The translations under genes were made by a program, and so were the position numbers. From the NCBI GenBank assembly GCA_009694375.1, contig SHVB01000004.1:1-64000 (forward strand): a stretch of DNA of 64,000 nucleotides, in the 5' to 3' direction. The notes below the pieces were generated by a model. It had not been told where the DNA came from. It made no database searches and saw nothing but the letters and a program-made list of their open reading frames with translations. Source of the stretch: Acidimicrobiia bacterium. GTDB lineage: Bacteria > Actinomycetota > Acidimicrobiia > Acidimicrobiales > VFJN01. Positions 67 to 9,392 of the stretch are shown in pieces. The stretch's first letter is position 1. Each line of letters opens with the position of its first letter.

Positions 67-1569
67 GTGGTTGTTGCCGGGTTGGCGTTGTTGAGCGGTG
101 TCGTTGCATTGTCGGGTTCAAACCCGGCCGGTGCCGGTCAGTTCCCCGGTAGCAACGGCAAAATCGCCTACACCGCTTATGGGCCTTTCGGTTACCACAA
201 CATTTATGTGATGAACGCGGATGGCACCGATCAAACCCGGGTCACCAACACCCTCGCCGGTGGCGAGTTGCCGTCGTGGTCGCCGGATGGCACCCGCATC
301 GCATTCACCAAAATATCGATCGAGGACGACAGCGCAGCTATTTGGGTGATGAACGCGGATGGCAGCGGACAAACCCAGCTCACCGGTCGCTTGGACGCGT
401 CCAGTCGCCCGTCGTGGTCGCCGGATGGCAACCGCATCGCATTCGACAGCCTTCGGGACGGCAATTTCGAGGTTTATGTGATGGGCGCGGATGGCAGCGG
501 ACAAACCCGCCTCACCAACAACCCCTACGACGACTTGGAACCGTCGTGGTCGCCGGATGGCACCCGCATCGCATTCACCAGCGCCCGGAACGGCTACTAC
601 GAGGTTTATGTGATGGGCGCGGATGGCAGCGGACAAACCCGCCTCACCAACAGCCCCGGTACCGACTTTGGCCCGTCGTGGTCGCCGGATGGCACCCGCA
701 TCGCATTCACCAGCGGCCGGGACGGCAACTACAACTACGAGGTTTATGTGATGAACGCGGATGGCAGCGGACAAACCCGCCTCACCAACAACCCCGTATG
801 GGACTTTGAACCGTCGTGGTCGCCGGATGGCACCCGCATCGCATTTAGTTACGGCTCGTACAGCTGGTCCCAGGTTTATGTGATGAACGCTGATGGCACT
901 GATCAAACTCTGGTGACGGACCCTGAAGCCGTGCCCGGGAGCGTCCACGATGGCAACCCGGCTTGGCAATCGGTCCCGGTTGCGCCGCTCTTGGCTGTTG
1001 CGCCCACAATCCAGCGCAACGCCACCGCAGGCAACGGCAGCGCGACGGTCAACTGGAGCGCGCCGTCGCCGAACGGCTCGCTGGCCGTCACCGGGTACGT
1101 GGTGACCCCGTACATCGGGTACTACGCGCTGGCTCCGCAGACGTTCACCTCGGCGGCGACCACCCAGACCGTCACTGGGCTCATGAACGGCGCCACGTAC
1201 CGGTTCAAGGTGGCGGCTAGGAACGCCTTCGGCACCGGACCGATGTCGAGGATCAGCAACCCGGTCACACCAGCCGCGACCGCGCCTGGGGCGCCGACCA
1301 TAGGTGCCGCGGTGGCTGGGGCCGGTGCGGCGACGGTGTCGTGGACGGCTCCGGTGTCCGATGGTGGTTCGCCGATCACGGGTTACGTGGTGACCCCGTA
1401 CATCGGGTACTACGCGCTGGCGCCGCAGACGTTCACCTCGACGGCGACCACCCAGACCGTCACTGGGCTCATGAACGGCACCACGTACCGGTTCCGGGTC
1501 CGGGCCATCAATGCGGTCGGGACTGGTGGCTACTCGAAGGTGACCAACACCGTCACCCCGACGCCCTGA
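67..1569 (+). CDS. Secreted PD40 beta-propeller protein with two fibronectin type III domains
   Basis: The 500-residue product starts with a hydrophobic stretch ending near SNPAGAG, which reads as a signal peptide. About six TolB-like PD40 blades follow (roughly residues 30-310), each with a WSPDGTRIAF-type core and a YVMNADGSGQT-type strand. Two FN3 domains fill residues 320-500. The family forms extracellular beta-propellers that bind protein or polysaccharide; no catalytic site is visible. The GTG start at 67 is the only usable start after the in-frame TAG at 1-3. However, the frame is open further upstream and encodes basic residues (SKRF) that would suit a signal n-region, and the purine-rich GGGGGAG at 34-40 is too far for a normal ribosome site, so the start is uncertain. 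An in-frame RCC1 module follows the stop. Confidence 0.8.
   Translation: MVVAGLALLSGVVALSGSNPAGAGQFPGSNGKIAYTAYGPFGYHNIYVMNADGTDQTRVTNTLAGGELPSWSPDGTRIAFTKISIEDDSAAIWVMNADGSGQTQLTGRLDASSRPSWSPDGNRIAFDSLRDGNFEVYVMGADGSGQTRLTNNPYDDLEPSWSPDGTRIAFTSARNGYYEVYVMGADGSGQTRLTNSPGTDFGPSWSPDGTRIAFTSGRDGNYNYEVYVMNADGSGQTRLTNNPVWDFEPSWSPDGTRIAFSYGSYSWSQVYVMNADGTDQTLVTDPEAVPGSVHDGNPAWQSVPVAPLLAVAPTIQRNATAGNGSATVNWSAPSPNGSLAVTGYVVTPYIGYYALAPQTFTSAATTQTVTGLMNGATYRFKVAARNAFGTGPMSRISNPVTPAATAPGAPTIGAAVAGAGAATVSWTAPVSDGGSPITGYVVTPYIGYYALAPQTFTSTATTQTVTGLMNGTTYRFRVRAINAVGTGGYSKVTNTVTPTP
198..960 (+). repeat. Six PD40 coding repeats of about 130-140 bp
   Basis: The segment encoding the VMxADGxxQT motif recurs near 198, 339, 469, 601, 739 and 871, that is every 130-141 bp. 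Nearly identical DNA encodes WSPDGTRIAF between them. The central copies are so similar that recent internal duplication or gene conversion is likely. Confidence 0.85.
1096..1494 (+). repeat. Near-identical FN3 segment duplicated within the gene
   Basis: Bases 1096-1206 and 1384-1494 align over about 111 bp at an offset of 288 with only about three differences. The intervening FN3 sequence is much less conserved. Both copies encode the YVVTPYIGYYALAPQTF strand and the TVTGLMNG turn. This is a recent duplication or gene conversion between the two FN3 domains. Confidence 0.85.
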
Positions 1570-1728
1570 ACCCCCCTCACCGCTATCGCCGTCACCGCCG
1601 GCGCCTTCCATTCGTGTGCTTTGATGTTGGGCGGGACCGTCAGATGCTGGGGCTACAACAACTCCGGGCAGCTCGGTAACGGGACCACATACCGCTCGTC
1701 GGTCGCGCAGCCGGTCATCGGGTTATAG
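1570..1728 (+). pseudogene. In-frame RCC1 repeat remnant after the stop of the PD40/FN3 gene
   Basis: Immediately after the TGA at 1567-1569, the same reading frame stays open to TAG at 1726-1728. It encodes one recognisable RCC1-type blade, with [20 protein letters not shown] followed by [10 protein letters not shown]. No start codon or ribosome site begins this piece. It therefore looks like the tail of a longer PD40-FN3-RCC1 protein cut by one nonsense codon, or a truncated leftover of a larger RCC1 array. Stop-codon readthrough is a less likely alternative. Confidence 0.6.
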
Positions 1729-1855
1729 GTCGTCGAGCCTCACCACCGTCGGCCCGGTCGACGGGGCCACCAGCGAAACCGGAAGCCGTTACCTGGCTGC
1801 CTACGAAACGCTCGCCTGGGCGGAGAGCCGCCGGGGTGACCTGGCTGCCTATGCG

Positions 1856-2212
1856 GTGGCTGTTGTGGAAGTGACCGCCGAGTACGAAACCGCCGAACAC
1901 ACACTGTTCGACGTGTACGAAGTGGACCGACTGGCGGTGGTCGGCGAGGTGGGCCGCAACGTGGCCCGCACGAAATGGTTGCGGGATCACGAGAGGATCA
2001 CGCTCGACCTCATCGAACGGAAACGGCACCAGTGGCTCGACCTCGAACTCGACACGTTCGACGATCGGATCACTGGGGCGCTCACGCCGGATCAGGTGCC
2101 GGCAGGGTTAAGGCTGGCGAAAACGTGGGGCCGGGTAGTGCCACTGGTCGCCACGGATCGCCTTAGGGGGCAACGGGGCGGCCAGGAACCCAGTCATCAG
2201 CGGAGACGGTAG
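1856..2212 (+). CDS. Hypothetical protein, possibly a 5'-truncated fragment
   Basis: A 118-residue frame starts at GTG 1856. It is acidic and helix-rich, with EVTAEYETAEHTLFDVYEVD and a later DLIERKRHQWLDLELDTFDD stretch, and I recognise no family. The same frame is open back to about 1623. From 1730 it encodes plausible protein (YLAAYETLAWAESRRGDL) without any ATG, GTG or TTG before 1856, so the real gene may have lost its 5' part. The last 15 or so residues are low-complexity and may be non-native. It follows the RCC1 remnant, which suggests an eroded segment. Confidence 0.35.
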   Translation: MAVVEVTAEYETAEHTLFDVYEVDRLAVVGEVGRNVARTKWLRDHERITLDLIERKRHQWLDLELDTFDDRITGALTPDQVPAGLRLAKTWGRVVPLVATDRLRGQRGGQEPSHQRRR

Positions 2213-2263
2213 AGGCTAGGTTCGCCGATAGCAGTTACTAGCAATGAGGGGCTAGAGGTCGAA

Positions 2264-2719
2264 ATGCTCGTGAATGGCTACACGATCGAACCCAACGCCA
2301 ACCTGGCTGGCGCCGACCTGTCCGGTGCCGACCTGGCCGGCGCCGACCTGCAAGGCGCCAATCTGTTCGTCACCAACCTGTCCCGGGCCAACCTGTCCAA
2401 CGCCATCCTGTCCGGCGCCGACCTGAGCCAAGCCGATCTGTCCGGCGCCAACCTGTCCGGCTTCGAACTGTCCGGGGCCGACCTGTCCGGCGCCAACCTG
2501 TCCGGCGCCAACCTGACCAACGCCAACCTGTGGGGCGCCACCCTGTCCGAGGCCACCCTGTCCGGCGCCAACCTGTCCGGCGCCAACCTGTCCGGCGCCA
2601 ACCTGTACTACGCCCGCCTTTTCGGCGCCAACCTGTCCGGCGCCACCCTGTCCGGCGCCAACCTGACCGGATCCGAATGGGATGCGGTCACTATCTGGCC
2701 TCAAGGGTTCACGCCGTAG
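2264..2719 (+). CDS. Pentapeptide-repeat protein
   Basis: The 151-residue product consists almost wholly of A(D/N)LSG-type pentapeptides from residue 11 to about 137, some 25 consecutive units. Such arrays fold as a right-handed quadrilateral beta-helix. It ends with a short [13 protein letters not shown] cap. There is no signal peptide or membrane segment, so a cytoplasmic location is expected. Some relatives (Qnr, MfpA) mimic DNA and protect gyrase. Most have no known role, and nothing here selects one; the surface is mostly Asn, Asp and Ser. ATG 2264 follows GAGG with a 5-base spacer, which fixes the start. It stands alone. Confidence 0.9.
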
Positions 2720-2857
2720 CGATAGGGCCACTGGTCGCCGGTGGGGCAAACGCCACCCAGCGGTGGTCACAGAATGGTCACGAGGAGTCCCCCTACGTCG
2801 AATCTAGGGCGAAGGCGTCTTTGGCTGGGCCGGGGCACCTACGTTGCCTGCCGGTGT

Positions 2858-3424
2858 CTAGGCGTCGTCGCCGAGCCAGCCGGGAGCCCGGTCGAGGAGG
2901 TGGTGGCTCACCTCGGCGCAGCGATCCAACACCACACACAGTTGTTCCTGACCGCTGAACACATGCGAGAGAGACACCTCGATACGAGCCACGACGGTGA
3001 GGCTGCGTTCCGAGGGGTCGGTGGCCGACGGGTAGGAATCGATGGCCGACACCTCCAGGGGGAACTCGGCTCCTCCCACACCGGCGAGGTCGGTGGCTAG
3101 CAAGAGGAGATCGGGACCGTGCGGAAGCGGTGGTAGCGACCAGGTGAACAAGAGAGGGAACCAAAATCCCTCGGGCGGATCGTCGTCCTCGGGCAGGGTC
3201 ACGATGAGGTCCTCAAAGGACAGCAGCACGCGCGGGTCGACCTCTAAGGACAGATGGAGATCGAGCGGGCCACCACAGGCCTCTTCGGGGTGCAGGTCCA
3301 CTTCCCAGGCCTGGCGCAGCGAGTACGTCTCTACGAAATGGCGTTCGTCATGCACATGGAAGCCGTGGTCCACGGCATGGTCCTTGAGGTCGGCGACGAA
3401 TCCGGCAATATCGATGGCAGCCAT
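2858..3424 (-). CDS. Conserved hypothetical protein, acidic
   Basis: The 188-residue product from ATG 3424 is acidic and contains alternating hydrophobic strands such as LDLHLSLEVDPRVLLSFEDLIVTLP and SLTVVARIEVSLSHVF. No membrane segment, signal peptide or catalytic motif is evident. Upstream in-frame starts exist at ATG 3436 and GTG 3442; none has a clean ribosome site, so the N-terminus may be up to six residues longer. The gene is divergent from the inositol-monophosphatase-like gene at 3472, leaving under 50 bp for two promoters. I do not recognise the family, and function is unknown. Confidence 0.6.
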   Translation of the reverse strand: MAAIDIAGFVADLKDHAVDHGFHVHDERHFVETYSLRQAWEVDLHPEEACGGPLDLHLSLEVDPRVLLSFEDLIVTLPEDDDPPEGFWFPLLFTWSLPPLPHGPDLLLLATDLAGVGGAEFPLEVSAIDSYPSATDPSERSLTVVARIEVSLSHVFSGQEQLCVVLDRCAEVSHHLLDRAPGWLGDDA

Positions 3425-3471
3425 GGCCCCCCACATTGCCACGCGCCCGGGAACCCGTACGCTAAAGAGCG

Positions 3472-4254
3472 ATGAAAGACGAGATTCTCCTCGAGGTACT
3501 CCACGAAGCCGCCTCGGCGGTGAAGGTTGCGCTTTCGGGCTTGGCGGACTGGGGGAGTGCGGGTACCCACCCGGGGCAGTACCTCTCGGATCTGGCCGCC
3601 GATACCGCCGCTCTCGCCGTGATTGATCGTGCCGGACTCGGAGCCATGAGTGAGGAGTCGGGTCTGCATCACGCCGAGCGCTCGATCATCGTGGTGGTGG
3701 ACCCGGTGGATGGCAGCACCAACGCCAGCCGAGGCCTGCCGTGGTACGCCACCAGTCTCTGCGCGGTGGATGGCGACGGCGCCCGAGTGGCGGTAGTGGT
3801 TGATCACTCCAGCGGCACCCGGTTTGAAGCCGTGCGGGGCGCGGGAGCCCGGGCCGATGGCGTGGCCCTGCGGCCCAGCGCCTGCCGCAGCCTCGGCGAG
3901 GCCATGGTGGGACTGTCGGGGTATCCGCCCGTCTGGTTCGGCTGGAAGCAGTTCCGGGCCCTCGGTGCCATTGCGCTCGATCTCTGTGCGGTGGCCGGCG
4001 GCCGCCTCGATGCCTATGTCGACTGCAGCCCCAGCGCCCACGGGGCCTGGGATTACCTCGGTGGTCTCCTCATCTGTGCCGAAGCCGGCGCGACCGTGGT
4101 GGACGCCTACGATCGGCCCCTCATCACCATCGATCATGCCGTTCGGCGCACCCCCGTGGCGGCGGCCACCCCGGCATTATTGACTGAGGCCGTGGTGGCC
4201 CGCCGTCGCTTCGCTGATCATGGGCCGTGGGCGGCGGAACGCCTCGTAACCTGA
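3472..4254 (+). CDS. Inositol monophosphatase family protein
   Basis: The 260-residue length is normal for the IMPase family of Mg2+-dependent phosphatases. The metal site is visible as SEESG (residues 60-64) and DPVDGSTNA (77-85), with a later WDYLGGLLICAEAGA block that supplies the third metal-binding Asp. Family members act on myo-inositol-1-phosphate, histidinol phosphate, fructose-1,6-bisphosphate or PAP, and the substrate cannot be chosen from sequence. The Nudix gene starts 4 bp after the stop, so the two are probably cotranscribed and may share a role in phosphorylated-metabolite turnover (inference). It is expected to be cytoplasmic. Confidence 0.85.
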   Translation: MKDEILLEVLHEAASAVKVALSGLADWGSAGTHPGQYLSDLAADTAALAVIDRAGLGAMSEESGLHHAERSIIVVVDPVDGSTNASRGLPWYATSLCAVDGDGARVAVVVDHSSGTRFEAVRGAGARADGVALRPSACRSLGEAMVGLSGYPPVWFGWKQFRALGAIALDLCAVAGGRLDAYVDCSPSAHGAWDYLGGLLICAEAGATVVDAYDRPLITIDHAVRRTPVAAATPALLTEAVVARRRFADHGPWAAERLVT

Positions 4255-4258
4255 CCCC

Positions 4259-4804
4259 GTGATCGCTTCCCTGCATCGTGGTGCCCTCGCCGTGTTCCGT
4301 CGGCTTCCCGTCCGTCTGCGCCGCCGGGTGGTCCGCACCATTGCCCCGTCGTTCACCGTGGGCGCCATCTGCATCATCGAGCGGACCGACGGAGCTCTCC
4401 TGCTGGTGCGCCTCAGTTACCGGGACCGTTGGGGTCTTCCCGGTGGGCTTCTCAAACGGGGCGAGACCACCGCCGAAGCGGCCCGACGGGAGGTGGCCGA
4501 GGAGGTCGGGGTGACGGTTCGATTGATCCGGGAGCCCCAGGTGGTGGTGGACGCCGACGCCCAACGTGTTGACGTGATCTTTCGGGCCGTGCTGGCCGAG
4601 GGGGTGGACCCAACGTTGGCCCGCCCCATGTCGCCCGAAATCTTGGAAGTGGGCTGGTTCCAACCCGACGCGCTTCCCGAGCTACAGACCGAGGCCAGTG
4701 GGGCGCTCGTGGTCGCCGCCCGAGTGGATGCCGACGGGCTCAGTTCCTCAGCGAGGAGACCAGGCGACGATGCTGGGCGGAACACGGATGGCGCAACTTC
4801 GTGA
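4259..4804 (+). CDS. Nudix hydrolase
   Basis: The 181-residue product carries a full Nudix box at residues 63-84 (G-x5-E-x7-REVAEEVG), which binds Mg2+ and cleaves nucleoside-diphosphate-linked substrates. A basic N-terminal segment of about 28 residues ([13 protein letters not shown]) precedes the fold. The substrate is not predictable. The GTG start lies 4 bp after the upstream phosphatase stop. The last 65 bp overlap the 3' end of the convergent sigma factor gene. The C-terminal residues encoded there ([14 protein letters not shown]) look non-domain and may simply reflect stop-codon drift into the neighbour. Confidence 0.85.
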
Positions 4805-5684
4805 GTGCCTTCGCCTCAATCTGGCGAATGCGCTCACGAGTGACGTTGTAGCGACGCCCGACCTCATCCAGGGTGAGCGGGTGCCCGCCCTCCAGCCCAA
4901 AGCGGAGCGAGAGGATTTCCCGCTCTCGGGGATTAAGGAAATCGAGAAGGTTGTGGAGGTCGGACTTGGCCAGGGAAAGCGCGGCGGCGTCAAAGGGAGC
5001 CTCGGCGTTATCGTCGGCCAGCATGTCGCCCAGTTCGGCATCGTCTTCGCCGATGGGCACCGACAACGAGATGAGATCAGGAGACGCCTGGAGGGCCAAC
5101 TCCACTCGATCAAGGCGCATCCCGGTGTCCTCCGCCAACTCGGCGGGTGTGGGTTCGCGCCCGAGCGTTTTGAGCAGGGTGGCCGAGGCCTTCGAGAGCA
5201 CCGACATCGTGTCCACGAGGTGGGAAGGAAGCCGGATGGTGCGGGCCTTGTCGGCGATACCTCGGCCGATGGACTGGCGAATCCACCAGGTGGCGTAGGT
5301 GGAGAACTTGAAACCTTTGCGGTAGTCAAACTTCTCTACGGCTCGCATCAGCCCGAGGTTTCCCTCCTGGATCAGGTCTAGAAGCGTCATTCCCGTGCCC
5401 TGATATCGCTTGGCGATCGACACCACTAGCCGCAGGTTGGATTGGATGAAGGTGCTGCGAGCCAACTCGGCGGCCGCCACGTGCTTCTCGAGTCGCGTCT
5501 TGTGTGCCCGCGAGGGGGTGGTGGTGGCCAGTTCTTCCTCGGCCAGCCGACCGGCTTCGATGGCCTGCGCGAGTTCTACCTCTTGCTCGGCGGTGAGGAG
5601 CGGGAAATTACCTAATTCGCTGAGATACCGACGAGTTAGGTCGACCGTACCCTCACCCTCGGTGGGACGATTTCTCACCGACAC
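4740..5684 (-). CDS. RNA polymerase sigma-70 factor, primary-like (group 1/2)
   Basis: The 314-residue protein has region 1.2 (about residues 15-45), region 2 with [12 protein letters not shown] and [10 protein letters not shown], region 3, and a region 4.2 helix-turn-helix ([20 protein letters not shown]). It lacks the long acidic N-terminal extension of RpoD, so it resembles the group 2 factors HrdB-like/SigB of actinobacteria. The near-perfect region 2.4 and 4.2 motifs suggest recognition of standard -10/-35 elements (inference). GTG 5684 is supported by GGAGG with a 5-base spacer. It converges on and overlaps the Nudix gene by 65 bp. On its 5' side it is divergent from the SMC-like gene across about 174 bp. 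Confidence 0.92.
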
Positions 5685-5858
5685 GGGATCCTCCGTTAGC
5701 TGTGGCCCCTACCTTGGGGCTGTGGTCCTTCATCGACTGTAGAGGGCGGTTTCTGAACCAGTAGGGATGGTCTCAAGTGTTGGTTGTTCCCGGTCGATAC
5801 CAAGCCAACGCCCGCTTTCGGCAACACGGACTGTGTTGGGAGTCGGGAACCCAACAAC

Positions 5859-8414
5859 ATGTCGACGAACTTGCCCTCTCGCCCTCGCCTCCGCAGCCTC
5901 CATCAGCGACTCACCATCACCCTCTCCAGCCGTGCGGAACGCGCGGCGTTGTTGCAACTCTTCGCCGCGCCATCTGGGGAGGCGAGCGGCGCGGTTTCGG
6001 CGGTGGTGCTGGACTCGGCCGATCTGCGGACGGCGACGGTGGGATTCACGCAGCGCCGGGCCGCCGACCGAGCGCAGCGCCAAGTGCGCCTGGCCGCGGA
6101 GGTGACCGCCGCGGGCGAGCAGCATGAAACGGCCTCGCGTGAACTGGTGGCGCTGAGCAGTCGACAGAAGGCTCTGCTCGACGGGGCGATATGGGTAGAG
6201 GAGACCGAAGCCACCGTCAGGAGCGGCCAGGAGGCACTCCAGGATGCCGAGGCCCTCCTGGACCGGCGGCGGCAGGAGCAGGCCGCGGCCAACCACGAAG
6301 TGGCCCAGGTCCTCCAGCAGCGCGAGGCATTGGAGGAGGCCATTAGCCGAGCCGATCGCCACCTGGATCACACACCAGAGGTGGGGATGGACGAAGGAGC
6401 CCTGCGGAGCGAACTCACAGCCGCCGGTCGGGCCGTCGAACAGGCCATCCGGGCCCACCACGATGCGGAGGTCTGTCTAGCGGATCGTCAGGCCACGGCC
6501 CCAAGAGGCACCCCGTTGGTGATCCTCGCATCCCCAGTAGTGGAGGCAACCTCGGCTCCGGTTGAACGAAGGGACGATCCCGTACTGACGGCGGTGGTGG
6601 ATGCCCTCGTGGCGTTGCGTTCGGTTTCAGCGGGCTTTGACGAGGTGGATCCGACGGCCACGGCCCTCGCCGAGGCCTGGCGGGACCTAGAGGCCGACTT
6701 CGCAGAGCTGCCGGTGGCTGGTGTTGCTCCCAGCGAGGAGGAACTCCTCAGCGCCCGCACTCGACTGGCCGTGGCAGAAGCAGAGTTTGTTGAGATTGAG
6801 CGAGCCATGCGGGCCAACACCCTCAGTGCCCCAGAGCGTGCGGCACTAGACGCAGCTCATGCCGCGGTGGTGGAGGCCGAGGACCGGTTGGGTCGTCGCT
6901 GGGGGGCGACGGCTACGAGAATGCGGGTGGCTGAAGTGCGGGCCGCCGAACGGGCGCTGTTGGCCCACCACGGGTTCGCGGGCTACATCGATGTGGTCAT
7001 CTCCGGCGGCCGCTCGGGCGTGGTGGATCCCCGCCACGCTGGCCTGAATCGCGAGCGCCAGAGCGCCGCCGCCGCCTTAGGTGCTCTCACGGAGGCCTCG
7101 GCGGGCTCGCCCGAGCACCAACACCTTGAGTCCGAGCGCCAGCGGTTGTACGCCATGGTGGTTGAGCTCCTCGGGGTGGACCCACTTGGCCGCACGCAGG
7201 AACTCCTCAAAGCACACCGACGGGTGGCCCCGAGCCTGCAGACCGACCTCCTGGAGGCCCTCGTCGCGGCAGGCATCCACCCCGCCGGGATCGATCTCGG
7301 ATCGGCGGCCGCCGCCTATGTGGAGAGCCAAGGGGTGGTGCTCGACGGGGAGGCAGAGACCGACGGTGCGCGCCACGCGGCGGGGAGTAGTCAGAGCCAT
7401 TCCGGGGCGGACGATCGGGATGAGATGACCTACGAGGTAGATCTTCGTTCAGCCGAGTGGGAGGTGGACCGCCTGGCCGAGGAACTCCAGTTGGCACGGG
7501 GCTCGGTGGCAGCGGTGGAGAGTGAACTCAGCCAACGCGCCAGCCAGGATGCGGCTCGCGCCGAGGAAGTGGAAGCCCTGGCGCTGATGCGTCGCCAACT
7601 TGACGGAGCCACCGGCTCCCTCGTGCTGGCCCAACAGGCCAGCGAACGCGAGATGGATCGCACCACGGAGGGTTTTGCCTCGGCTGAAGGGAATCTCGAA
7701 GCAGCGGCGTTGGTGGTTCGTGGCGTAGCCCGGAAGGTCCGGCAACTCGCCGAGGAACTACCCAGCGGCGAGCGGTTCGCGGGGGATCCGATGGAGGACC
7801 TCACCGGGTTGGTGGGCCGCCTCAAGCATCACGCCAGTTCATTCGACCCCGCCCGGAGCCAGGCCGAGACCGACGTTGCGACCACCTCGCGGCGCCTCGC
7901 TGACGCGCGTGCGGCTGCCCTCCTGGCCGACACGGTGGCCGATGAGGTGGTGGGCGAGGACCTGATCGCAGGATTCGAGACGGTGCTGCAGACCGCCAAT
8001 CCCGATCTACTGGTGGTGCTCGACGAGCCGTTTGGCCATCTCGACGCTGCCGCCACCGAAGCGTTGCTCCACACCCTCGTACAGGCCGCCGACGACCGTC
8101 AGATCGTGATGCTCTCCGAGGACCCCACCATCCTGGCCTGGGCGATCGAACTGCCTGCCTCGGTGGGGACGGCGATTCCGGCGGCGATGCTCTGGCGAGA
8201 TCTGGAGCACACCGCTCCTCCGGAGGTTCCGGCGGCCGTTGTTGTTCCGGTGGCCCCGGCGGCCGTTGTTGTTCCGGTGGCCCCGGCGGCCGTTGTTGTT
8301 CCGGTGGCTGTTGTTGTTCCGGCGGCCCCGCTGGCCCCGGTGGCCGCTCTCGCCCCCGCTGCCACCAACCGCCGCTGGGCGGGGCAACGGTCAGCTCTCG
8401 TCCAGTCCGACTAG
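5859..8414 (+). CDS. SMC-like coiled-coil protein with a C-terminal ABC-ATPase remnant
   Basis: The 851-residue protein is dominated by Ala-, Glu- and Arg-rich heptads. Coiled coils lie at about residues 60-200, 270-370 and 510-670, separated by a less helical centre. Near residues 700-750 it has LLVVLDEPFGHLDAAATEALL, which matches the Walker B and D-loop of SMC/RecF-type ABC ATPases, followed by an H-loop-like QIVMLSEDP. I find no GxxGxGK(S/T) Walker A and no LSGGQ signature, so hydrolysis is doubtful unless a partner supplies them. The tail is a Val-Pro-Ala repeat. ATG 5859 is preferred; a TTG at 5784 would add 25 residues. The HATPase gene follows 21 bp downstream, which implies an operon. 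Function is unknown; roles in chromosome handling or defence are only analogies. Confidence 0.7.
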   Translation: MSTNLPSRPRLRSLHQRLTITLSSRAERAALLQLFAAPSGEASGAVSAVVLDSADLRTATVGFTQRRAADRAQRQVRLAAEVTAAGEQHETASRELVALSSRQKALLDGAIWVEETEATVRSGQEALQDAEALLDRRRQEQAAANHEVAQVLQQREALEEAISRADRHLDHTPEVGMDEGALRSELTAAGRAVEQAIRAHHDAEVCLADRQATAPRGTPLVILASPVVEATSAPVERRDDPVLTAVVDALVALRSVSAGFDEVDPTATALAEAWRDLEADFAELPVAGVAPSEEELLSARTRLAVAEAEFVEIERAMRANTLSAPERAALDAAHAAVVEAEDRLGRRWGATATRMRVAEVRAAERALLAHHGFAGYIDVVISGGRSGVVDPRHAGLNRERQSAAAALGALTEASAGSPEHQHLESERQRLYAMVVELLGVDPLGRTQELLKAHRRVAPSLQTDLLEALVAAGIHPAGIDLGSAAAAYVESQGVVLDGEAETDGARHAAGSSQSHSGADDRDEMTYEVDLRSAEWEVDRLAEELQLARGSVAAVESELSQRASQDAARAEEVEALALMRRQLDGATGSLVLAQQASEREMDRTTEGFASAEGNLEAAALVVRGVARKVRQLAEELPSGERFAGDPMEDLTGLVGRLKHHASSFDPARSQAETDVATTSRRLADARAAALLADTVADEVVGEDLIAGFETVLQTANPDLLVVLDEPFGHLDAAATEALLHTLVQAADDRQIVMLSEDPTILAWAIELPASVGTAIPAAMLWRDLEHTAPPEVPAAVVVPVAPAAVVVPVAPAAVVVPVAVVVPAAPLAPVAALAPAATNRRWAGQRSALVQSD
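8231..8311 (+). repeat. Three tandem 27-bp repeats coding for a Val-Pro-Ala tail
   Basis: Units begin at 8231, 8258 and 8285. The first two are identical; the third diverges in its last bases. Each encodes AAVVVPVAP. The array forms a flexible, probably length-variable tail on the SMC-like protein. Confidence 0.9.
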
Positions 8415-8435
8415 GAGAATCCCGGGTTTCCCGTC

Positions 8436-9392
8436 ATGCCGATGCTCACCCCCTCACCGATGCCCGTCCCACTGTCGTGGAACATGGTGTTGGCGATTAG
8501 CGCGGTTCTCCTGCTGCTGGCCCTCGTTCAGAGGTTCGGCCGATTGACCATGGTCAAGACGGACACGACAACGACCGGCGCATCGACGCTGGCCGTGCAT
8601 CGGCCCATGCCAACCGCCGAGCCGGAAGGGACCAGCGCCGCTCCGCCGCGCCACACACCCGACCCCGGCGGCAGGGCCGACCAATCCGGAAAGGGCGACC
8701 CCACGCCTGGGCAGCGCCGAAGGGCCGAGTCGCGACGGGTGCTGGCCGGTAGCGATCTCCCGTCATCGCGTACGCAACCGATGCGACTGTCCGATGCCAT
8801 GCACGAAGCCCGGGGGGAGGTTGAAGGGCACGAACGGGTAGAGGTGGGTCATTTCGACCCGGCGTCCATCCACGGCGTCGAGGCCCCGGCCCTGGTGCAT
8901 GTGATGGCCGAACTCATCGAGAATGCCTTGTCGTACTCGCCGCCGCAACGGCCCGTCGAGGTGAGCGGGTGCCGCACCTCAGCGGGCTACACGATCCTGG
9001 TGACGGACCACGGTGGGGGCATGCTCGATAACGACATTGAGCGGGCCAACCATCGCCTCGCCGGTGAAGACTCCCAACGCGTAGTGCCCACTTGTTACCT
9101 GGGTCACCATGTGACGGGGCACCTCGCCCGTCGCATCGGCGTGGTGGTGGCGCTGAGCAAGGCTCCCGACGGGGGCATCACGGCTTGTATCGATGTGCCT
9201 GTATCCCTTCTCGAGGTGGAGCAGATCGCCAGTGCGATGATCCTGAAGTCACCTCGGACGCCCGTCGCGGTGGGTGATCGCTGCGCTGGCCATACGGCTC
9301 TGTTTCCGGTGGGTCCGTCGATGTACGCCATCGTGGCGGCCGGTCGACCCCGGAGGGACATTGACCCTGTGCGGGACCTGGCGGCTCGCTGA
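8436..9392 (+). CDS. Membrane-anchored histidine-kinase-like ATPase (HATPase_c)
   Basis: The 318-residue product has one transmembrane helix near residues 14-31 (WNMVLAISAVLLLLALVQ), a Pro/Thr/Gly-rich linker to about 115, then a GHKL-type ATP-binding domain. The N-box is MAELIENALSYSPP and the G1 box is TDHGGGM; a degraded G2 reads YLGHHVTGHLARRIG. The arrangement resembles actinobacterial sensor kinases of the nitrate-sensor/conservon CvnA type. However, there is no sensor domain and no clear DHp helix with a phospho-acceptor His. It may be a kinase-like ATPase or anti-sigma-like switch. It lies 21 bp behind the SMC-like gene and probably acts with it (inference). Confidence 0.75.
   Translation: MPMLTPSPMPVPLSWNMVLAISAVLLLLALVQRFGRLTMVKTDTTTTGASTLAVHRPMPTAEPEGTSAAPPRHTPDPGGRADQSGKGDPTPGQRRRAESRRVLAGSDLPSSRTQPMRLSDAMHEARGEVEGHERVEVGHFDPASIHGVEAPALVHVMAELIENALSYSPPQRPVEVSGCRTSAGYTILVTDHGGGMLDNDIERANHRLAGEDSQRVVPTCYLGHHVTGHLARRIGVVVALSKAPDGGITACIDVPVSLLEVEQIASAMILKSPRTPVAVGDRCAGHTALFPVGPSMYAIVAAGRPRRDIDPVRDLAAR

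Follow-up and report, generated by a model that had tools for sequence, protein, structure and literature searches.

Our analysis of a 64,000-nucleotide stretch of DNA from an Acidimicrobiia bacterium of the Acidimicrobiales (the window; contig SHVB01000004.1 of assembly GCA_009694375.1) points to two adjacent genes on its forward strand as the reduced form of a conservon, the actinobacterial G-protein system composed of CvnA to CvnD. Drawing on sequence comparison and on analogy with a characterized conservon, we propose, with a probability of roughly 0.6, that the product of the first gene, a rod of SMC-like ancestry, serves as an ATP-independent scaffold or modulator of the HATPase domain of the second, a truncated CvnA kinase. 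An earlier note made from the letters of the window had singled out the same pair, and the conservon provides the context missing there: the pair is explained because the kinase is a CvnA in truncated form, and the G-protein operon is found entire in relatives. The two genes, separated by 21 base pairs (bp) from the stop of the first to the start of the second, are:

5859..8414, + strand: 851-aa protein of SMC/YhaN-like type with coiled coils and no Walker A (open reading frame list; homologues in genomes G001 and G003–G006; hits of the subfamily model across the bacterial order)
8436..9392, + strand: truncated CvnA, 318 aa, with one transmembrane (TM) helix, a linker, DHp helix 2 and an HATPase domain (Pfam; alignment to full CvnA kinases; homologues)

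The product of 8436–9392 is, as judged from its alignment, a truncated form of CvnA, the conservon kinase. It is matched by Pfam HATPase_c (E 1.4e-7) and aligns with full CvnA from the second DHp helix (RRxAESxxVLAG, which reads RRNAES..VLAG in the window) through the whole catalytic and ATP-binding (CA) domain, and its best relatives outside the genus are CvnA-type kinases, several of them adjoining an SMC-like homologue (G005:C179, G004:C75); in G006 the piece on C164 is probably the detached end of the C271 kinase. The kinases of the window genome (G000), G001 and G003 alike lack NIT, HAMP and the DHp helix that bears the LDH histidine. LDH is present in most full-length CvnA of relatives, and the linked CvnA of G005 has NIT, HAMP and a DHp with LDH. 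Because the truncated CvnA starts after the LDH-bearing DHp helix, it has no phospho-acceptor, and a Pfam scan of flanking genes showed no response regulator next to it. The LPxR motif reported at CvnA C-termini (PMC4316618) is absent from the window kinase when sought as a regular expression, but it is absent from most CvnA compared as well and so does not discriminate. The parts of the kinase that can be placed are as follows, omega being the ratio of nonsynonymous to synonymous substitution rates and pLDDT the predicted local distance difference test score:

8472..8534, + strand: TM helix of the truncated CvnA (hydropathy 2.37 at residues about 13–33; predicted helix 15–35, block pLDDT up to 86)
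8712..9221, + strand: second DHp helix and the HATPase (CA) domain, whose N-box reads ELIENA and whose G1 box reads DHGGGM (alignment to full CvnA kinases; omega 0.46)

The link to a complete operon comes from the relatives, whose genomes are mostly draft assemblies with genes called by a simple composition-based script. The window genome itself measures 2.58 Mb and is 96% complete, with the window on contig C4; G001–G003 belong to the same genus and G004–G006 to the same family (f1), which has only seven genomes in the collection. In G004–G006 a full-length cvnA immediately follows the SMC-like homologue, and the order in G005 runs SMC-like gene, CvnA, roadblock, DUF742, GTPase and a second CvnA. 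The same arrangement, with CvnA as the gene immediately after the SMC-like one, recurs in two genomes of family f58 (G063, G134) and six of family f16 (G213, G166, G190, G021, G289, G233), at loci that were found by comparing the coordinates of family and DUF742 matches and then confirmed by reading. DUF742 follows downstream in all eight, a GTPase was called in every one except G190, most of the f16 loci have a short roadblock-type gene separating CvnA from DUF742, and the CvnA of G166 and G021 give Pfam matches to NIT and HAMP. Across the genomes read that carry the conservon-linked subfamily, the pair is directly adjacent in 14 of 14, upstream of cvnA or its remnant. These 14 proteins form one branch (Shimodaira–Hasegawa-like approximate likelihood ratio test 97, from an alignment of just 99 columns). 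Past Walker B all 14 have the motif WA[IVAM]xL[PA]xxxG, which is found in none of 54 others, a distinction that is descriptive since it was noticed on the same sequences. The two head trees place the clade differently, with the A-type in one and near the B-type in the other, on long branches. The SMC-like gene was not beside the other conservons read in the order. From these loci we take its link to the conservon to be lineage-specific but recurrent.

In the window's own genus, neither roadblock (CvnB) nor DUF742 (CvnC) was found in the whole genomes of G000–G003; no GTPase (CvnD) gene adjoins the window pair, although no genome- or genus-wide search for one was made. Three of the four species (G000, G001 and G003) nevertheless retain the SMC-like gene together with the truncated CvnA, and the closest named relative locus, that of Candidatus Microthrix parvicella RN1 (L014), shows 90% protein identity. 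Such a pair might be a decaying remnant, left without a dedicated function once the G-protein genes were lost and now on its way out. Its rate of evolution is indeed well above that of the neighbouring genes (omega 0.35–0.62 against 0.03–0.25 for them, and 0.03–0.05 for the sigma gene next to it), omega is near 0.9 in the TM region and the C-terminal tail of the kinase, and the fourth species, G002, lacks the pair, all SMC-like paralogues and the conservon genes. Yet both frames are intact in three species at a synonymous divergence (dS) of about 0.5, with no stops where a simple neutral simulation expects about 17 per lineage; omega is clearly below 1 in both genes, at 0.35 [0.29–0.40] for the coiled-coil gene and 0.46 [0.31–0.65] for the ATPase domain of the kinase; and the N-box and G1 box are retained. 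The pair is under purifying selection and is not decaying freely, and we regard a functionless remnant as unlikely.

The SMC-like partner is read from an open reading frame at 5784–8414 (+) that gives 876 aa from a TTG and 851 aa from the ATG at 5859. This ATG is the likely start because similarity to the G003 and G001 orthologues holds from MSTN onward, with G001 diverging upstream. Homologues in G001 and G003 (genus) and in G004–G006 (family) are 28–89% identical over nearly the full length. Its parts are:

5898..5963, + strand: N-terminal half-head, LHQRLTITLSSRAERAALLQLF (residues 14–35), with the P-loop position (family alignment; hhalign to YhaN N-heads)
6015..6368, + strand: first long predicted helix or coiled coil, residues 53–170 (AlphaFold2 on two sequences, pLDDT about 65–78 over most of it)
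7443..7754, + strand: second long predicted helix or coiled coil, residues 529–632 (AlphaFold2, partly under pLDDT 50)
7941..8192, + strand: C-terminal half-head, residues 695–778, containing the Walker B/D-loop VVLDEPFGHLD and, as motif of the subfamily, WAIELPASVG (profile A1; hhalign)
8229..8308, + strand: three perfect 27-bp tandem copies in a Pro/Val/Ala tail (Tandem Repeats Finder)

In the family alignment Arg28 of the window protein occupies the position of the P-loop Lys, and VVLDEPFGHLD spans residues 719–729. A further helix is predicted at residues 324–370 with low confidence; the AlphaFold2 model on two sequences (overall pLDDT 45) has long helices, candidates for the antiparallel coiled coil that joins the half-heads in ATPases of this class. 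The length of the Pro/Val/Ala tail varies among species. Neither GxxxxGK[ST] nor LSxGQ occurs in frame, the upstream extension included. Alternative starts were tried as a way of restoring Walker A, and none in frame up to the previous stop does so; the orthologues again support ATG 5859. The earlier note was thus right in its description of the pair: coiled coils (here a low-confidence prediction), VVLDEPFGHLD, no Walker A or LSGGQ that any change of start or frame restores, and, 21 bp downstream, a partner with one TM helix and HATPase_c and without a DHp His, the whole divergent from a primary-like sigma factor.

Searches of Pfam, NCBIfam and PDB with the single 851-aa sequence return no family and only faint matches, mostly at Walker B, and the family members scanned against Pfam and NCBIfam have no match above cut-off. 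Comparison of profiles to SMC-type ATPases, which the earlier note had advised, proved more informative. Profile A1, built from the C-terminal half-heads of the family, matches solved ABC ATPases in PDB, CydC, UvrA, RecN and Rad50 among them (best E 1e-4), and hhalign aligns the family C-heads with YhaN C-heads at E 2e-19 and the N-heads with YhaN N-heads ungapped across the P-loop at a probability of 71%, against 0.1% for crossed controls. Most of the YhaN-like proteins compared, which come mainly from other Actinomycetota, have a Walker A of the GPNESGKSS type, and those read have a signature of the LSHGT type. By contrast, none of 47 aligned family members has GK[ST] at the P-loop: the Lys position holds Arg in 45, Lys in one and Gln in one, the first Gly is retained in 40, and the Ser/Thr after the Lys position has mostly become Glu or Ala. 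Of the 47 members, 45 retain the Asp of Walker B, and the next residue is Asp in 28 and Glu in 18, whereas the ABC signature (LSGGQ/LSxGT), present in the YhaN outgroups, is found neither in the window protein nor in its aligned relatives, and the switch His of the H-loop is not kept, with Asp, Glu, Ala, Asn or Ser in its place and already Gln in most YhaN outgroups. By these comparisons the 851-aa protein is derived from an ABC ATPase akin to YhaN and Rad50 and no longer has an intact ATP site. Because the Acidimicrobiales family forms a single clade apart from YhaN (support 100/100), the pattern fits one early loss of the P-loop in the family ancestor. At E < 0.001 the C-head profile matches 263 of the 298 genomes of the order, a figure that overstates the family, since many of the weak matches are likely ordinary ABC, RecN or YhaN proteins. 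Outside the order, a YhaN-like protein (L158 in G358, open reading frame 765–4094, − strand) has AGVNESAKSS at the P-loop, possibly an independent change. To our knowledge, an SMC-like family evolved without an intact ATP site is rare among ABC and SMC proteins.

The loss of the ATP site bears directly on the proposal of the earlier note that the two proteins, each binding ATP, form one membrane-tethered ATPase complex devoted to chromosome organisation, defence or sigma control. The SMC-like head, the coiled coils and the divergent sigma gene had suggested such a two-ATPase machine. The HATPase half keeps its motifs, and conservation of the pair in 14 of 14 genomes, the co-occurrence that the note asked for, makes a common complex plausible; the SMC-like head, lacking Walker A and signature family-wide, leaves that complex without its second ATP site, and the context is a conservon instead. 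The sigma factor is the following neighbour:

4740..5684, − strand: primary-like sigma factor, divergent (context only)

Its adjacency to the pair is shared by three species of one genus and not beyond, and a sigma-factor module was rejected as a candidate, with gene order at the sigma locus differing in G002, G004 and G005. A PADLOC defence search with the window protein gave only weak local matches, with a best E of 5e-4 and confined to the Walker B region, none of them convincing, and nothing in the analysis points to chromosome organisation. We therefore consider a new two-ATPase complex of this kind very improbable. The note's remark that no described system contains such a pair has stood: our literature searches returned no description of an SMC-like gene paired with CvnA.

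How might a rod without an ATP site act on a kinase without a phospho-acceptor? In Streptomyces Cvn8, CvnF8 and CvnA8 associate stably, and CvnF8 stimulates both the ATPase and the autophosphorylation of CvnA8; both CvnF and CvnE have been modelled at HATPase domains (PMC13343842). By analogy to CvnF8, we posit that the rod-shaped, YhaN/Rad50-derived protein binds the HATPase domain of CvnA, which would add a third type to the conservon accessories CvnF (GAF) and CvnE (P450). The genus of the window has lost the NIT sensor, HAMP and phospho-acceptor parts of CvnA along with roadblock and DUF742, and is left with the SMC-like rod and a membrane-tethered HATPase stub, with ATP presumably bound by the stub only. 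Ordinary histidine phosphorylation is an unlikely output because the phospho-acceptor is missing, and a conformational change of the pair is probably what takes its place; an ATP-dependent shape change, which occurs in other GHKL proteins, would be the simplest substitute. The partnership is supported because reduction of the operon spared exactly the SMC-like gene and the ATPase domain of CvnA. This selective sparing, and adjacency to cvnA throughout the 14-member monophyletic subfamily, also speak against mere co-transcription of the SMC-like gene with cvnA, in which the protein would make no contact with the kinase and would be an ATP-independent structural rod for other partners such as its own paralogues; three paralogues elsewhere in G000, and the joint absence of all four copies from G002, are what that alternative has in its favour, and we think it quite unlikely.

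Several observations weigh against the scaffold proposal all the same. The pair is absent from G002, and the omega of the kinase is near neutral outside the ATPase domain. Orthology of the window kinase to the linked CvnA is neither rejected nor demonstrated by the HATPase-domain tree (approximately unbiased test of one clade, p 0.21), and the AlphaFold2 models of both proteins are too poor for use (pLDDT 36 and 45). CvnE and CvnF, moreover, go with CvnA proteins that lack NIT (PMC13343842), whereas outside the window's genus the SMC-like accessory, where tested, accompanies a NIT-bearing CvnA. A broader scenario can be offered, as a tentative one that we hold at less than even odds: an SMC/Rad50-like family widespread in the Acidimicrobiales gave up ATP once, in its ancestor, through a change of the P-loop Lys to a conserved Arg; one branch became a dedicated, rod-shaped regulator of CvnA; and in Candidatus Microthrix the entire G-protein pathway collapsed to a minimal two-protein device, this regulator and the membrane-tethered HATPase, that responds to ATP without phosphotransfer.

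Further members and neighbours were seen along the way. A 191-aa paralogue in the window genome (L097:5670–6245, G000:C7) consists of two half-heads without a coiled coil; by eye, its block includes an ArsA-like ATPase, a possible peptide-release-factor-like protein and a ROK-type kinase, and other families have longer forms, of about 600–900 aa, in the same place. Two more paralogues without Walker A (L096:7747–9045, G000:C15; L098:5566–7950, G000:C1) have hydrophobic, TM-like stretches in mid-protein, the former lying near a YajQ-like gene. All four paralogues and the conservon genes are missing from G002 as if lost together. Elsewhere in the window, 67–1569 carries an open reading frame with TolB-like repeats (by eye) and DNA repeats of 132/270 bp, and 2264–2719 encodes a pentapeptide-repeat protein. 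In two f16 genomes (L186:327–10115, L191:4980–14258) the conservon and its SMC-like gene lie amid type IV pilus genes (PilM, PilO, prepilin-type). MglA controls pili in Myxococcus, and this setting is therefore a lead for conservon output. The regulation and output of conservon kinases are poorly understood, and a recurrent coiled-coil accessory, together with a lineage that has kept nothing but this accessory and the ATPase domain of CvnA, directs attention to that domain while adding an unannotated SMC-like family without an intact ATP site.

Compared with the conservon as described (PMC13343842, PMC4316618), the window kinase shares homology with CvnA over the stretch that runs from DHp helix 2 through the HATPase domain, and the operon of relatives is complete and in order, whereas the window lacks NIT, HAMP, DHp helix 1, CvnB, CvnC and an adjacent GTPase and has an SMC-like gene added upstream. 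Like CvnF and CvnE, the SMC-like protein is an accessory genetically linked to CvnA, and the window CvnA is likewise without NIT; unlike them, it is of SMC/YhaN-like ancestry, has no Pfam match to a GAF or P450 domain, and has a partner that keeps NIT in other families. With the YhaN/SbcC/Rad50-type ABC ATPases the window family shares N- and C-half-heads, a predicted coiled coil between them and the Walker B, and it differs in its Arg for the P-loop Lys and in the loss of the second P-loop Gly and of LSxGT. A eukaryotic precedent for an ATPase-deficient, SMC-like protein is SMCL-1 of C. elegans, a regulator of another ATPase (PMC5373644). SMCL-1 keeps Walker A and has no coils, in contrast to the window protein, which lacks Walker A, and its head-only layout is resembled only by the 191-aa paralogue of the genus on contig C7; what SMCL-1 and the window protein would have in common is an SMC-like character, an ATPase deficiency and the regulation of another ATPase.

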